Below are positions 2,398 through 26,685 of a stretch of DNA of 53,006 bases, piece by piece. Each line of letters begins with the position of its first letter. Within the stretch, counting starts at the first letter, position 1. The notes beneath the pieces are model-generated. The model saw only the letters and a program-made list of their open reading frames with translations, was not told the origin of the DNA and did no database searches. Position numbers and translations under genes: made by a program. The stretch is from an uncultured Candidatus Altimarinota bacterium (GTDB lineage: Bacteria > Patescibacteriota > Gracilibacteria > BD1-5 > UBA2023): the NCBI GenBank assembly GCA_936941205.1, contig CAKZJF010000072.1, positions 1 through 53,006 on the forward strand, in the 5' to 3' direction.

Positions 2398-5300
2398 AGA
2401 AAAGCAAAAAGAAACTGTTTCACGAAATGAAATCCTAAAAAAATGGCCAGAACTTCAAAAATTTTCACATGAGCTGTATCGAAAATTTGAAGCGCGTGCT
2501 ACTATTTTATCTGAATTACAAGATGCACTCAATCATCCGACAAAATATTCTATTCTCTGATTAACTGATACAGAAAGAGATTCTGTTGAAGTGATTATGC
2601 AATCATTGATAAAAGTAGAAAATCCTAGTCCACAGAAACAAGTTATTGGTCGAGGAAAATTTGGGCTCTATAATCAAAAACAAGAAATGACATATTTTTT
2701 ATGACAACTTCTAAAGAATCCAGTCGTTTTAAATAATTTTTTTTCCAAATCACTTGATAGGCAACCACTCGATCCAGATAAAGAAAAAAATATTTCTCGA
2801 TTGTCTCGATTTCTTGTAGCTTTTTCAAATCACCCAGATGCAAAGAAATATACAACTCAAATACGAACATGATTACAATTTGCTGATCAATGAGACTATG
2901 AAAAACTCAAGAAATCGGTTGAATGAATTATTACAAACTATTCATCGATTTCTATAGGGGCCATTCTGAGTCCTGATGAGTCAGAAGGTCTTTGAATGGT
3001 ACTTCGTCAATTATGAGACACAAAAAATGCAGGAGATATATTTATTAAAGAATGACAGCAAACTATTCAACGAGCAGTTGAAAAAAATGTTGTTTCCCCT
3101 GAACAGAAGGCACTTGGGGAGTATTTGAATAACAATATGCGTACGGTATCAACCAATATATCAATGCCAATAGCAGAAATTCAGTATAATAAACTTGTAC
3201 AAGCACTTCCAGTAAATCATCCACAGAGAATACTTCTCGAGAATGATCCAAAGGCGAAAGAAAAGATCGCAGAAGCACATGCAGCTATATATTGTATTGA
3301 TACTTTTATTAAAGATCAATGAGACAAGGGTCTCTGAGCTGCATTTTGAAAATATAATGACATGAAGGGGTTATACGGGATAGATAATTGGAGTGATGAG
3401 AATATTAAAATGACAAAAGAGATGGCTATTATGGTTGCATCTTTTGCGTTGACAGCTGGTATTTGACCACTTCTTGGCTCACTTGGAGTTGGAGCTCGAA
3501 TCCTTCAATGAACCAATCTTGCACGAGCCACCAATCTTGCTCAAGAAGGGAAGGTTATGCGTGCAGGAATAGCAACTACAAAAGCAAAAACAGCACAATG
3601 AACTGCATGGACTCTCGAACAAGCTGCACAGATTGGACAAACAAGTACTATGGCTCGTTTCGGATCAGAGGCTTTAAAATTTACTACTCTTGATGCTTTT
3701 ATTCGAAATCGAGTACGCGCTCCAGGTGAGGTTGATTGATTTGATGAATTTATAAAGAAATTATCAACGAACTTTGTCATGTTTTGAGCTTTTGCGGGCA
3801 TGGAAAAAGTTATAGGGAAACTTTTACCGGTTTGAATTGCAAAGGCAGAATGATTCCAGATTCAAAATGGTGTAAAATTACTTGCATTTACATCATGAGA
3901 TGTTGCTGTTATGCAAGCACTTCATGCTGCAGAGACAGGAAATATTGAATGGGACTGGATGAGTGCATTCCAGGCATTAGCATTTCGTGTTGGGATGAAA
4001 GGTACTCAAAAACTTCCAGATATTATTGCAAAGCAATTTCCAAATCTTTCAACAAAATGGGAATTAGCAAAATTTGAAGCAGGAGAAATACGAAATGGAT
4101 CATTATCTCCATCCAAATGATATATAGAACCTCTACGATCTCCTGAGACTCAAATCTTTCAAGTAGAAAGTAGGAAACCAGCTCAATTAGGAAACCAGCA
4201 TTGAGTTCGTGAAACTTGATCTCAAGAAGTGGTCAATGCTTCTAAAACAATTAAAGATGTATTGAATAGAGACGTATTTAAATCAACTCTAGCTTCTCCG
4301 GATGGGCTTATACGTATACGTATTGGTGAACTGGGATTTCCTGATATTGTCGTTGTTAAGTATAAGAATACTGGCAAAAGTGATAAGCAATATACATTTG
4401 AATGAGGGAGTGATAAGAATTTCTATTCACTCTCAGAAATACGAGCTAAAATACAACAAATGCAAGAATCGGCAGGAATTCAATTTGCGACTCAAAATAT
4501 TTCAGGTCAAAAAAAGGCATATGAATCAACTCATCCTGAATCTATATTAGCAACACCAGAAATTCTTAATATAATTGATCAAGGAGTTAAGGATAATCCG
4601 CTTTTTATAAAAGCATGGTGAAGATATAAAGAATTATGATGAGAACTTTATCTCCATCCTGAATCTTGGATATCTTCCTCAGCAATTTGATGAAAATTAA
4701 ATTGGGAGAATACTTTTATAAATATTTGAATCGGTAGAGGATGAGAAGGTTTGCATATGAAAATGCAAGAGCTTTATAAAGCTTTTTGAATTGAAACCGA
4801 GTGACATATAAATACTGTATTTCGTCATGAAATCGGACATGATATTACTATTCGATACCTGCAGAATCATCCTGAAGTTAAGAATCATCTTGAGTCTAAG
4901 TATCAAGAGCTAATGGCATGAACCATATCACCAATGGCTATGGATTGATTTTATATAGGAGCATGACGAAATGTTCAGATTCTTGAAGATTTTGCTGAGA
5001 TGATGAGTTTATATATAAAGAAACCTGAAGTTTTTACTTCTTACATGCAACAATTAAAAAATGCAACAATAGATATTCCTGTAAAGAATTTTCTTAATGT
5101 TTTTGAAAATACTATTTATGGGTCTTATAGGGAATATATAAATTGAAGTAATCAATCTATAAATCCTAGTTCTAAAGCTTCAAATTCTATTATATGATCA
5201 AAATCAGAGAAATTACAATGAGTCAATTCACATACTATTTCTACCTCTCAAGAAGCTATAGATACTGCCATAAATCGTGTAAAAAGTATTCCAAAATGAA

Positions 5301-23055: not shown

Positions 23056-25260
23056 ATGGCAATATATAAGATACGAAAACGAAATGGTATCATTGATACC
23101 TTTGATCGGGTGAAAATTGAAACCGCGATTGCGAAAGCTATTGAGGCAGTTGGAGGGCAGGATTACTCACTTATAGAAGGTATTACAAATCAGGTTATTT
23201 CTCTTATATCTGTTCGTCAATGAGATGCTATCCCTGATCTTGAAATTATACAAGATACAGTAGAAGAGGTATTGATTAAAGATGGTCATGATACAGTCGC
23301 AAAAGCATATATCCTATATCGTGCTAAACGAGCTGAAATTCGTTCTGATGAAGCAGTGATGATTGAGGTGGGGAAAACCATGGAAGAATATCTTGAAAAG
23401 AGTGATTGGCGTGTAAATGCAAATGCAAATTCTGGTTATTCCCTCGGATGACTTATTCTTAATACTTCATGAAAAATCACGGCTAATTACTGGCTTTCTC
23501 ATATTTATCCAAAAGATGTTTGAAATGCTCATAGAAATGGAGATTACCATATTCATGACCTTGATATGTTTTGTTGATATTGTGCTGGATGGAGTTTGCG
23601 CCAACTGCTTGAGGAGTGATTTAATGGTATGCCGAATCGTATAGAATCTGCACCACCGAAGAACCTACAGGCAGCTGTTAATCAAATGATAAATTTTCTT
23701 TGAACTCTTCAAAATGAATGGGCTGGAGCACAAGCCTTTTCGTCATTTGATACCTATCTTTCTCCCTTCGTTCATAAGCATATGGAAGAAGTTCGGTCTG
23801 ATATAAAAATGTATAATATGCAGTTTGATACTATCGAACTGCAGGAGAAATTTATTGAAGAAAAGACCTATCACTATGTCCTTCAACAGATGCAAAATTT
23901 TGTTTTTTGACTGAATGTACCTTCCAGATGGGGAACACAAACACCATTTACAAATATTACACTTGATTGGTCATGTCCAGAAGATTTGATAGATAAAGCA
24001 CTTCATCTTGGTGGATATGAAAAAGGTTTGTATATGAAAACGTACGGGGAATTGGATCACGAACGTGAGATTATTAACCGTGCACTCTTGCAGGTATACT
24101 GAGAGGGAGATTATCGAGGTCGAGCATTTACATTTCCAATTCCAACCTATAATATTACAGAAGATTTTCCATGGGAAAGTGATGCAGTAAATAGTATTTT
24201 TGAAATGACCGCAAAGTATGGTCTCCCATACTTTCAAAACTTCATAGGTTCACAGTATAAGCGTGTTCATGATGAAGATGGTATCATACAGCGTGTTCCC
24301 AATAATGATGCATATAAACCATGAGCAGTGCGCTCTATGTGCTGTCGTCTTCAGCTTGATTTGCGTGAGCTTATTAAACGATGAAATGGTCTGTTTGGTT
24401 CTGCTGAAATGACAGGTTCAATTGGGGTAGTTACAATTAATGTTGCACGTATCTGATATTTAAATAAGGGCGACAAGGAATGATTTAAGAAGCGCATTCA
24501 TGAACTCATGGATCTTGCTAAAACTTCACTTGAGATTAAACGTAAAGTTCTTTCTGATTGGTTATGAAAAGGATTATATCCTTACACTTATCGATACCTT
24601 CGATCTTTCCGAAATCATTTTTCAACTATTGGATTAAATGGTATGAATGAAGCAATTCTGAATTTTACGAATGGTGCTGAAGATATCACGACTGATCAAG
24701 GAAAGGCTTTTGCTATTGAAATTCTTGATTTTATGCGAGAAATTTTGAAAGAATATCAAGAATCTACTGGAAATATGTACAATCTTGAGGCAACACCAGC
24801 AGAATGAACTACCTATCGATTTGCTCGTGAAGATAAACGACAACATGCTGATATTGTCCAGGCGGGCACTCCTGAAAACCCGTATTATACCAATTCAACT
24901 CAGGTTCCTGTGAATTTTACTGATGATGCATTTGAAGCATTGGAATATCAGAATGAGCTTCAGTGTAAATATACATGATGAACCGTACTTCATCTATATA
25001 TGGGGGAACGTATAACTGATGCAATTGCTTGTAAGAATTTTGTTCGAAAAGTAATTGAGAATTATCAGCTTCCGTATATCACGGTAACTCCGACTTTTTC
25101 GATTTGTCCAAAACATGGATATATTACCGGTGAGCATGATTATTGTCCGAAGTGTGATGCAGAAATTGGATATTCTGGCCAGAAATTTGATATGAACGCA
25201 CGTATTCCTTATACGGCAGATGATCAAAAACGAAGTGATCTTGAAACTATTTTACTTTAA
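23056..25260 (+). CDS. nrdD: Anaerobic (class III) ribonucleotide reductase catalytic part, lacking the glycyl-radical domain
   Basis: 734 residues, about 17 UGA glycines. Reduces ribonucleotides to deoxyribonucleotides without oxygen. An ATP-cone allosteric domain fills residues 1-92 (IRKRNGIIDTFDRVKIE). The barrel has NGDYHIHDLDMF, PSRWGTQTPFTNIT and SMCCRLQLDLREL, with candidate active-site Cys residues. Near the C-terminus FSICPKHGYITGEH and YCPKC form the zinc site. In Thermotoga-type NrdD the CEVYSRVVGYLRPV-type glycyl-radical segment should follow, but here the protein stops with SDLETILL-TAA. That segment is the next ORF, 19 nt downstream in another frame. Confidence 0.95.
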
Positions 25261-25279
25261 TTTTTATAATATTTTTTCT

Positions 25280-25450
25280 ATGGACTATTTTTATAATGCA
25301 AATGGGGATAAAGTGGAACGAACACGTTGTGAGATTTATACACGAGTAATGGGGTATTATAGACCAGTAACTCAATTTAATAATTGAAAAAAATCTGAAT
25401 TTTATACAAGAAAGTATTTTACAGAAGGAAAAAGTGTTTGTAATTATTAA
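25280..25450 (+). CDS. Stand-alone glycyl-radical domain of ribonucleotide reductase
   Basis: 56 residues, missed by length-limited ORF callers. The core CEIYTRVMGYYRPVTQFNNG followed by KKSEFYTRKYF matches the C-terminal glycyl-radical loop of class III NrdD (R-V-x-G-Y, then N-x-GK-x-x-E). The radical glycine would be the GGG-coded Gly of RVMGYY. It has its own ATG, no Shine-Dalgarno, and a frame different from nrdD, so it must act in trans, much as the YfiD spare part does for pyruvate formate-lyase. It is followed at 12 nt by the iron-repair gene and then by the activase gene. Confidence 0.85.
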
Positions 25451-25462
25451 TTCTGTCTTTTT

Positions 25463-25981
25463 ATGATACAGAATATCCAAAGTACAAAAGATATGATTTC
25501 ATTTATTATCGAAACGTATCATATTCCCTTAAAAGAAATACTTCCAGAAATATCTACCATGCTTACGAGAATGATCGAGGTACATGGTAAAGAACATCCA
25601 GAATTAGAGTTATTAAAGAAGTGTTTCATAGCTTTTCGTACTGATATGGAAAAACATCTGAGAAAAGAAGAGGATATTCTTTTTCCAATGATTCTACAGC
25701 TTGAAAATGCATATACGAAGAATGCTGAGAGACCAAAATTTCACTGTGGGAGTATTGAAAATCCAATTCATCAAATGGAATATGAACATGAGCAATTTGA
25801 TGACTTATTTAAACAAATGAAACATATTACTCATAATTTTATTCTTCCAGATGATGCATGTAAATTATTTATAAAATGTTACGGAACATTTTTAAAAATG
25901 ATAGAAGATACTGAGATTCATGCAACGTATGAAAATACTATTTTATTTGCACGGGTTAAAGAGCTTACTCATTTGTTGTAA
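25463..25981 (+). CDS. Hemerythrin-like iron-sulfur repair protein (RIC/YtfE/ScdA type)
   Basis: 172 residues of helical bundle with di-iron ligands: ETYHIPLKE, IEVHGKEHPE, KHLRKEEDILFPM, IHQMEYEHEQFDDL and EIHATYENTILF. These match the hemerythrin domain of RIC proteins, which donate iron to clusters damaged by oxygen or nitric oxide. The N-terminal ScdA_N domain is absent. Lying between the two halves of the reductase and its Fe-S activase, it plausibly maintains the activase cluster. Confidence 0.88.
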   Translation: MIQNIQSTKDMISFIIETYHIPLKEILPEISTMLTRMIEVHGKEHPELELLKKCFIAFRTDMEKHLRKEEDILFPMILQLENAYTKNAERPKFHCGSIENPIHQMEYEHEQFDDLFKQMKHITHNFILPDDACKLFIKCYGTFLKMIEDTEIHATYENTILFARVKELTHLL

Positions 25982-25983
25982 TT

Positions 25984-26685
25984 ATGTATATTTCCTGACT
26001 CCAAAAACTTTCTCTTATTGATTATCCTGGAAATATTGCCTGTATTGTTTTTACTCCAGGATGTAATTTAAGGTGTGGTTATTGTCACAATCCTGATTTT
26101 GTTCTTCCAGAACGTATCCAAAAACTTAAAAATTCCTGGATGAATGAAGAGTTGTTTTTTGATTTTCTCAAAAAACGACAATGACTCATCGATGGAGTTT
26201 CAATTTGTTGAGGTGAACCAACATTGCAGGGGGATATTATTCCTTTTTGTGAAAGAGTTCATTCGATGGGTTTTTCTATAAAACTTGATACCAATGGAAC
26301 AAATCCGCATGTATTACAAGATCTTCTAAAGCGAAAAATTATTGACTATGTGGCCATGGATATCAAAGATATTTGGGGATGATATGAGAATCTTACAGGT
26401 ATTTGTATGGATATTGAGAAATATAAAGAGAGTGCTCATATTATTATTGCACATGCTCCGCAATATGAATTTCGAACAACAGTCATCGCATGAGTACATA
26501 CTCCTGAATCTATCTGAATTATTGCATCATATATCCAGGGTGCATCCAATTATTTTTTGCAGAATTATCGACCAAAAGATACACTCAATCCAAACTTTAT
26601 TGGATCGAGTGTATCAGATGAGATACTTATAAAAATGCAATCACAGGCATTATATTTTGTGAAAAAATGTGAGATCCGGAACTAA
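25984..26685 (+). CDS. nrdG: Anaerobic ribonucleotide reductase activating protein (radical SAM)
   Basis: 233 residues. The radical SAM motif is CNLRCGYCHN near residue 27, binding the 4Fe-4S cluster that cleaves SAM to make the glycyl radical. The start GLQKLSLIDYPGNIACIVF and VSICGGEPTLQGD are typical of the NrdG/PflA group; its length fits the longer NrdG2 type. It begins 2 nt after the repair gene. Its TAA directly abuts the TAA of the convergent gene (TAATTA). Confidence 0.95.

Follow-up and report, generated by a model that had tools for sequence, protein, structure and literature searches.

The window analysed here is a stretch of 53,006 nucleotides (nt) from an uncultured Candidatus Altimarinota bacterium (contig CAKZJF010000072.1 of assembly GCA_936941205.1). 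It was read under genetic code 25, and both open reading frames (ORFs) of the nrdD locus described below depend on TGA being read as Gly. At this locus, a class III (anaerobic) ribonucleotide reductase (RNR), NrdD, is encoded by two adjacent genes: a large ORF for the catalytic core and a separate ORF of 56 amino acids (AA) for the glycyl-radical segment (Table 1). The large protein matches PF13597 over profile positions 2-529 of 562 (E-value 6.6e-169, 563.6 bits, cut-off 26.2) and NCBIfam NF006126 with 1030.6 bits (cut-off 548). The small protein, which contains RTRCEIYTRVMGYYRPVTQFNNGKKSEF, matches PF13597 positions 532-562 (E-value 6.3e-8, 32.2 bits, cut-off 26.2), so that the family is covered once by the pair together. 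No other Pfam family, including the pyruvate formate-lyase (PFL)-type Gly_radical domain, was found on the 56-AA ORF at E-values up to 1, a range in which the HMMER filters drop most matches above 0.1. The best explanation, to which we assign a probability of about 0.92, is that the window encodes a two-subunit class III RNR whose radical subunit would act in trans.

Re-reading the sequence reproduced the layout given in the initial annotation, including the coordinates, the frames, the ATG and TAA of the small ORF, the 19-nt gap and the change of frame between the two ORFs. One detail had to be corrected, as the large chain had been described as ending right after its zinc site: it runs 34 residues further, and this tail is largely conserved in relatives. 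The frame of the small ORF stays open upstream to about position 25088, overlapping the large ORF. Therefore, two separate genes could not be concluded from the frames by themselves, and it is the relatives that establish them. No Shine-Dalgarno (SD)-like string was seen for the small ORF, which carries little weight since only 1 of 59 window ORFs had one in a count whose script takes the first ATG per frame and includes spurious ORFs. The genome of the window (G000; 1.3 Mb, 90 contigs, 99% complete) holds just these two NRDD matches, and no fused NrdD was found in it at E-values up to 10. It also encodes a class I RNR, with NrdA and NrdB.

Table 1. Features of the nrdD locus in the window (forward-strand positions).
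Feature	Coordinates	Strand	Remarks
Large subunit, class III RNR (NrdD) core	23056..25260	+	734 AA, without glycyl-radical segment
Domains of the large subunit			N-terminal ATP-cone (PF03477), catalytic barrel, zinc site
NANAN motif (NxN flap of class III RNRs)	23416..23430	+	Sequence reading
Finger loop MCCR (double-cysteine class)	24337..24348	+	Sequence reading
Complete zinc site of the large chain (C-x2-H...C-x2-C)	25105..25155	+	Sequence reading
C-terminal tail past the zinc site	25156..25257	+	34 residues (701-734)
Gap between large and small ORFs	25261..25279	+	19 nt
Small subunit, separate glycyl-radical ORF	25280..25450	+	56 AA, ATG to TAA; frame differs from large ORF
Cys17 codon (R-T-R-C-E) of the small ORF	25328..25330	+
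Radical glycine codon (RVM-G-YYRP, Gly25) of the small ORF	25352..25354	+
TGA read as Gly (N-N-G-K-K) in the small ORF	25385..25387	+	Invariant in 30 aligned small ORFs, window included
Hemerythrin / iron-sulfur-repair-like protein	25463..25981	+	172 AA; PF01814 E-value 1.8e-12
NrdG activase (radical SAM)	25984..26685	+	TIGR02495 193.3 bits, cut-off 131.15

The 56-AA protein was matched in 33 of the 59 near-relative genomes searched, the window's own included, and 26 were without a match. Thirty loci were oriented and read, namely the window and 29 loci from relatives in three families of the order. In all of them the large ORF stops soon past the zinc site and is followed by a distinct radical ORF, whose matched part begins 19-379 nt beyond that stop; offsets of 0, 1 and 2 all occur between the frames. 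The survey of related Gracilibacteria proposed in the initial annotation thus returned the same split in 29 of 29 relatives' loci, and fused relatives, which would have pointed to an assembly error in a single genome, did not appear among these near relatives. The tail of the large chain (GYxGxKFDxxxRxxYTxD) is largely conserved in them and shorter in three. Between the window and the relative G009 (L207), 0.13 of the nonsynonymous sites in the small ORF and 0.11 of those in the large one are changed, with synonymous sites saturated, which indicates that the small ORF is under purifying selection and is no chance frame. The earlier view that both parts keep their expected motifs and are not decaying is borne out by the retained motifs and by purifying selection on both ORFs. 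Across the class, 90 of 288 genomes matched the small ORF, all on frames of at most 249 AA, part of which were read individually. In one genome of the class (G263), a fused NrdD is broken by an in-frame TAG, so fused forms are not wholly absent from it.

The split extends far beyond this class. In a sample of the phylum, 78 of 379 genomes were matched, 44 on frames of up to 162 AA (one of these, G344, being doubtful) and 34 on longer frames (three of them cut by contig ends or short). Further loci came from a scan of named genomes, covering the best 80 of 593 confirmed loci and hence biased to near ones, and from plasmid records, with 29 matches of which 14 were opened. A large NrdD was present in 132 of the 135 loci passed through one script, the window and repeats included. 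Of these 132, the script classed 111 as split, 19 as fused and two as fused plus another radical domain, either an extra small ORF (L177) or a second fused NrdD (L194). The 111 include three repeats as well as L178, in fact a fused gene with a TAG inside it, and L225, where the large gene is spread over two frames. Split loci occur in lineages of the candidate phyla radiation (CPR), an Obscuribacterales bacterium, Proteobacteria and Sulfuricurvum, and also on annotated plasmids and in isolate genomes. For Pseudomonadota, PF13597 matches were found in 34 of 299 genomes. Nine of these give two separate matches (core and radical segment), and G854 is split on reading the locus; together with G938, described below, 11 of the 34 are split or interrupted, the other 23 being single matches through the radical segment that were taken as fused. 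At an E-value of 0.001, seven of seven named genomes with split loci gave a single large and a single small match each, and a fused NrdD was found in none of them. In phages, the single tblastn match lies within an annotated anaerobic RNR gene of the ANMV-1 virus.

The activase gene accompanies the pair. An NrdG ORF lies on the same strand in 110 of the 111 split loci, and in 100 of those 110 its frame starts within -200 to 1000 nt of the end of the small ORF. In the window, a hemerythrin-like gene sits between the small subunit and nrdG. Its product matches TIGR03652 with an E-value of 1.7e-37, yet at 129.4 bits it stays under the cut-off of 204.7. This gene was considered as a part of the operon and discarded, as a search of the ORF set turned up a homologue in just one locus besides the window, L094.

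The motifs expected of a working enzyme are distributed over the two chains. The radical glycine is kept in all 107 distinct split loci, as is the cysteine corresponding to Cys17 of the window in this main set; the ribbon-type locus L270, read later, has Ala instead. Where coverage was sufficient, the zinc site is present in 106/106 distinct split loci and the finger loop MCCR in 99 of 100 large chains, the exception being RCCR in L170. The junction also differs between the two forms. Fused enzymes (20 of 21 read) continue from the zinc CxxC through 3-11 residues to [CTAN]-E/K-V/I-Y/W-S/T/A-R, mostly with C at the first position, and the remaining one (L185) is without that CxxC. Split large chains have CPxCD (106/106 with enough coverage) and nearly all carry a tail, for which no counterpart was found in the fused NrdDs read, while the small chains (45-149 AA, middle half 59-66) start with a leader followed by the same Cys/Gly motif as in fused enzymes. 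L270 breaks this rule with CPRCV. The cysteine before the radical motif was dropped as a split-specific mark, since most fused enzymes have the same cysteine and L270 lacks it.

Several single loci depart from the usual arrangement. Small radical ORFs lie on pALVIN01 of Allochromatium vinosum (L221:3992-4201) and on pAt1 of A. tepidum (L224:2460-2645), and neither plasmid gave a match for a large NrdD. G175:C63 has a second small radical ORF (L249, frame at 3007) that is divergent and possibly a contaminant; the 5 kb read there contain no large NrdD. On the Azospira plasmid pAZI09 (L226), a split nrdD with nrdG stands between annotated genes for the class I RNR alpha and beta subunits. The large nrdD of the Thiothrix plasmid pTfr153 (L225, 2196-3980), in two frames beside an intact small ORF and nrdG, is probably broken. 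In L213 (G148:C1:79500-84000), the small ORF frame (2964-3449) has a C-terminal glutaredoxin/thioredoxin-like domain with CPKC (PF00462, E-value 4e-6), a fusion that perhaps links the radical subunit to its reductant.

How often the gene was divided was considered with a quick tree, unrooted and without bootstrap, built from 99 split and 21 fused large chains (120 rows). One supported clade holds 91 split rows together with two fused rows and neighbours five fused CPR enzymes, and the other eight split rows lie elsewhere among fused CPR enzymes. The tree requires five state changes, at least three of which are forced by well-supported branches; a tree of 70 rows, equally quick and unrooted, also requires five and places G595 beside G551. 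A single clade of all split forms was rejected by an approximately unbiased (AU) test on a quick 67-row tree (p 6e-53), where 50 rows (48 split plus the fused L217 and L218) were set against 17 and the group had been named after the first tree was seen. This rejection does not extend to one early split with repeated fusions, a history that by our count costs the same five changes. The fused state is ancestral in other glycyl radical enzymes (GREs). If this also applied here, about three splits and two re-fusions (Acidiphilium pACMV3 and Actinomyces oris) would have occurred; the CPxCDxEIGY end common to two split groups would instead favour one early split with repeated fusion.

The split may be real and functional but neutral, with fission and fusion occurring by drift and the chains forming a permanent complex in which nothing is exchanged or repaired. 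State changes within lineages, including the two fused rows inside the main split clade, are in line with drift, but repeated change combined with long persistence across phyla suggests some advantage, and extra radical-domain ORFs exist beside fused enzymes. Weighing these points, we would give neutrality an even chance.

The extra ORFs are of a distinct type. In G551 (L177), a complete fused NrdD (PF13597 1-562) is followed by a 94-AA frame (L177:3131-3413) and then NrdG, and this frame combines a CxxC...CxxC zinc ribbon with its own glycyl-radical motif. The same order is found in G263 (L178, extra ORF L178:3021-3333), with the TAG in its NrdD frame. An extra radical domain beside a complete fused enzyme, as in YfiD/GrcA, is therefore present in G551, and in G263 beside a frame holding TAG, which makes the two ORFs a candidate spare part of NrdD. 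In G595 (L270, G595:C1:217500-222500), the large NrdD has no radical segment and solely a ribbon ORF, 64% identical to that of G551, carries the radical motif. Taken together, the three genomes suggest a route to the split in which the radical domain was duplicated and the fused copy then lost. The radical subunit could be an exchangeable cartridge that is loaded by NrdG and docked reversibly, so that an oxygen-cut copy would be replaced, a possibility raised in the initial annotation, while the costly 80-kDa core survives. The ORF of G551 and G263 would then be the first spare part of an RNR, and G595 would show how a spare part becomes an obligate subunit. This proposal is tentative, and we consider it somewhat improbable as a whole.

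Oxygen exposure, with the class I RNR protein NrdB as a proxy, was compared between 77 CPR genomes, which were assigned by frame length where not read singly. NrdB was present in 12 of 43 split and 10 of 34 fused genomes (Fisher p 1.0); G344 was excluded because of its weak match (7e-4) with no large NrdD found beside it. NrdB instead follows lineage, occurring in 10 of the 12 split genomes with a window-like small ORF (>80 bits) and in 2 of the 31 other split genomes. The proxy provides no support for oxygen as an overall driver of the split.

The relatives count against each of three further alternatives. Programmed frameshifting or stop readthrough, yielding one fused protein from both ORFs, would fit the short gaps in many loci and those loci where the ORFs are in frame, such as L126, with one TAA between them, and G938, with one TAG. 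However, across 106 split loci (repeats dropped) the frame offsets are spread 28/40/38, and the gap between the genes has a median of 26.5 nt and ranges from -41 to 1536, with 13 overlaps. The small ORFs have their own start codons, preceded in 52 of the 106 loci by an SD-like string, many of them the Proteobacterial AAGGAG. In L105 and L171, a gene that resembles dihydroorotate dehydrogenase by eye, from sequence reading, stands between the large and the small nrdD gene. Recoding into one chain is thus very improbable as the general explanation. Decay, with nrdD left as a relic in a cell that depends on the class I enzyme, draws on the presence of NrdA and NrdB and on the 26 of 59 genomes without a match to the small ORF, but it is contradicted by the purifying selection on both ORFs, by the retention of every motif and by the same state in several lineages that keep NrdG, and is likewise very improbable. 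A sequencing or assembly error, in which one lost or gained base would split a normal fused nrdD, might be suspected in a single metagenome bin with overlapping frames and a small frame open upstream, but is practically out of the question given the 29 of 29 split relatives' loci from three families with differing gaps and frames, a large-chain tail foreign to fused enzymes, and the split annotated plasmids and isolate genomes.

Two distant NrdDs, with the radical stretch in the same frame after one stop, may be further cases. In G938 of the Pseudomonadota (L256, G938:C1:443000-446500, 487-2748), whose NrdD is far from that of the window (79 bits), the core is separated by one TAG from a radical stretch of 64 codons that has an ATG of its own, a candidate for a split, for recoding or for a nonsense mutation. 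G308:C77 (L274) possibly holds yet another split: its NrdD-like chain, distant at 97 bits to the protein of the window, is followed after one stop by a 77-AA frame with the radical motif.

A two-subunit enzyme would work as follows. The large protein, in which the zinc site and the cysteines of the finger loop are retained, would fold as the usual ATP-cone and 10-stranded barrel. The protein of 56 residues would be translated separately in this organism and bear the glycine that NrdG converts to a radical. It would dock non-covalently at the zinc end of the large chain and insert its radical loop into the barrel beside the MCCR finger loop, from where the radical would move to a cysteine and reduction would proceed as in fused NrdD.

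The expected geometry was approached with an AlphaFold2 model of L108, a code-25 relative with both ORFs in frame that was modelled as one read-through chain from an alignment with 40 other rows, fused rows and the window's own chain among them. The model reached a pLDDT (predicted local distance difference test) of 84.1 and a predicted template modelling score (pTM) of 0.81, with 82-85 pLDDT in the radical region and a disordered artificial join (723-733, pLDDT <50). It has the RNR/GRE barrel fold, with Z-scores of 28-35 to the NrdDs of T4, T. maritima, P. copri and S. thermophilus. Residues 125-757 superpose on 26-587 of T4 NrdD, through the radical loop, with a root-mean-square deviation of 2.2 A over 500 residues, and the alignment to P. 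copri NrdD (Z 35) extends to residue 773. From a constant end offset of 170, we infer that L108 Gly750 matches T4 Gly580, to which Gly25 of the window would likewise correspond. The model puts the small piece at the site that the radical domain occupies in fused enzymes, which indicates compatibility with docking and is not proof of it.

A hint from a living system is provided by Cupriavidus necator. Its plasmid pHG1 carries the large gene (676 AA), the small gene (66 AA) and nrdG consecutively, with no other NRDD match on that plasmid. Since the nrdDG of pHG1 is reported as essential for complete denitrification (PMC2864759), the split operon most likely works in vivo, as judged from the plasmid that was searched for NrdD.

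Four points weigh against the two-subunit interpretation. The evidence on the split pairs is that of genes and of one fold model. The docking in that model is partly built in, through the read-through chain and the fused rows of the alignment. The genetics of pHG1 is second-hand, through the account in PMC2864759, and the NrdD search in C. necator covered the plasmid. Finally, G000 also has a class I RNR, so its gene content gives no argument that NrdD is required. The loci compared show a class III RNR that is genuinely encoded by two genes, is widespread and has long been kept, and action of the radical subunit in trans is very likely. The genuine split with a trans-acting radical domain put forward in the initial annotation is supported by the window and its 29 split relatives, by recurrence in CPR and Proteobacteria, by the invariant radical glycine and by the operon of pHG1.

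Class III RNRs have been described as single-chain alpha2 enzymes, which oxygen destroys by cutting at the C-terminal radical domain. The fused NrdDs (PF13597; NF006126/PRK08270 type; T4, Thermotoga maritima, Prevotella copri) share with the split form the barrel, the NxN flap (PMC11226230), the finger loop with its double-cysteine class (PMC9669993), the zinc site, in many cases the ATP-cone, the radical-loop motif and the nrdG partner. They differ in that their radical domain is the C-terminal part of the chain (PMC9669993, PMC9531940) and not a separate small protein, and in that most split large chains add a tail after CPxCD and the small chains a leader.

YfiD/GrcA and phage T4 Y06I/vs.6 are also small free glycyl-radical-domain proteins acting in trans, for PFL; vs.6 was noted as a Gly_radical ORF (PMC1524935), and a T4 protein is called a cofactor for PFL in the title of a reference cited by PMC11194802. 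However, the enzyme that these proteins rescue from oxygen cleavage is itself complete and fused, whereas the large chain of the window is without a radical glycine of its own, and the 56-AA ORF gave no match to the PFL-type Gly_radical domain. The split NrdJa/NrdJb of Pseudomonas aeruginosa is likewise an RNR in two chains, the second with the C-terminal domain, but it is a class II (B12) enzyme, and the large chain of the window is an NrdD and not a B12-dependent NrdJ. Phage RNR genes also occur in pieces (Aeh1 nrdA-a/nrdA-b; nrdD in phiAS4 and Lactococcus phage 949). Six split phage nrdD genes are listed individually, the cause being given as introns, inteins, homing endonucleases or unknown (PMC3653736), and they are not presented there as a conserved two-gene enzyme. 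The initial annotation had regarded the case as unusual. The split has proved to be common, but no description of a conserved split NrdD was found in the open PMC literature searched, with subscription papers mostly outside that search.

For annotation, both pieces are called RNR, and in the plasmid table of pHG1 the 66-AA piece is named "nrdD" and the 676-AA piece "ribonucleoside triphosphate reductase". In P. copri, dATP control works by loosening the radical domain (PMC11226230). With a widespread two-chain form in nature, loading, docking and replacement of the radical carrier independently of the core become directly testable, and titration of the small subunit offers a handle on radical transfer and dATP control.
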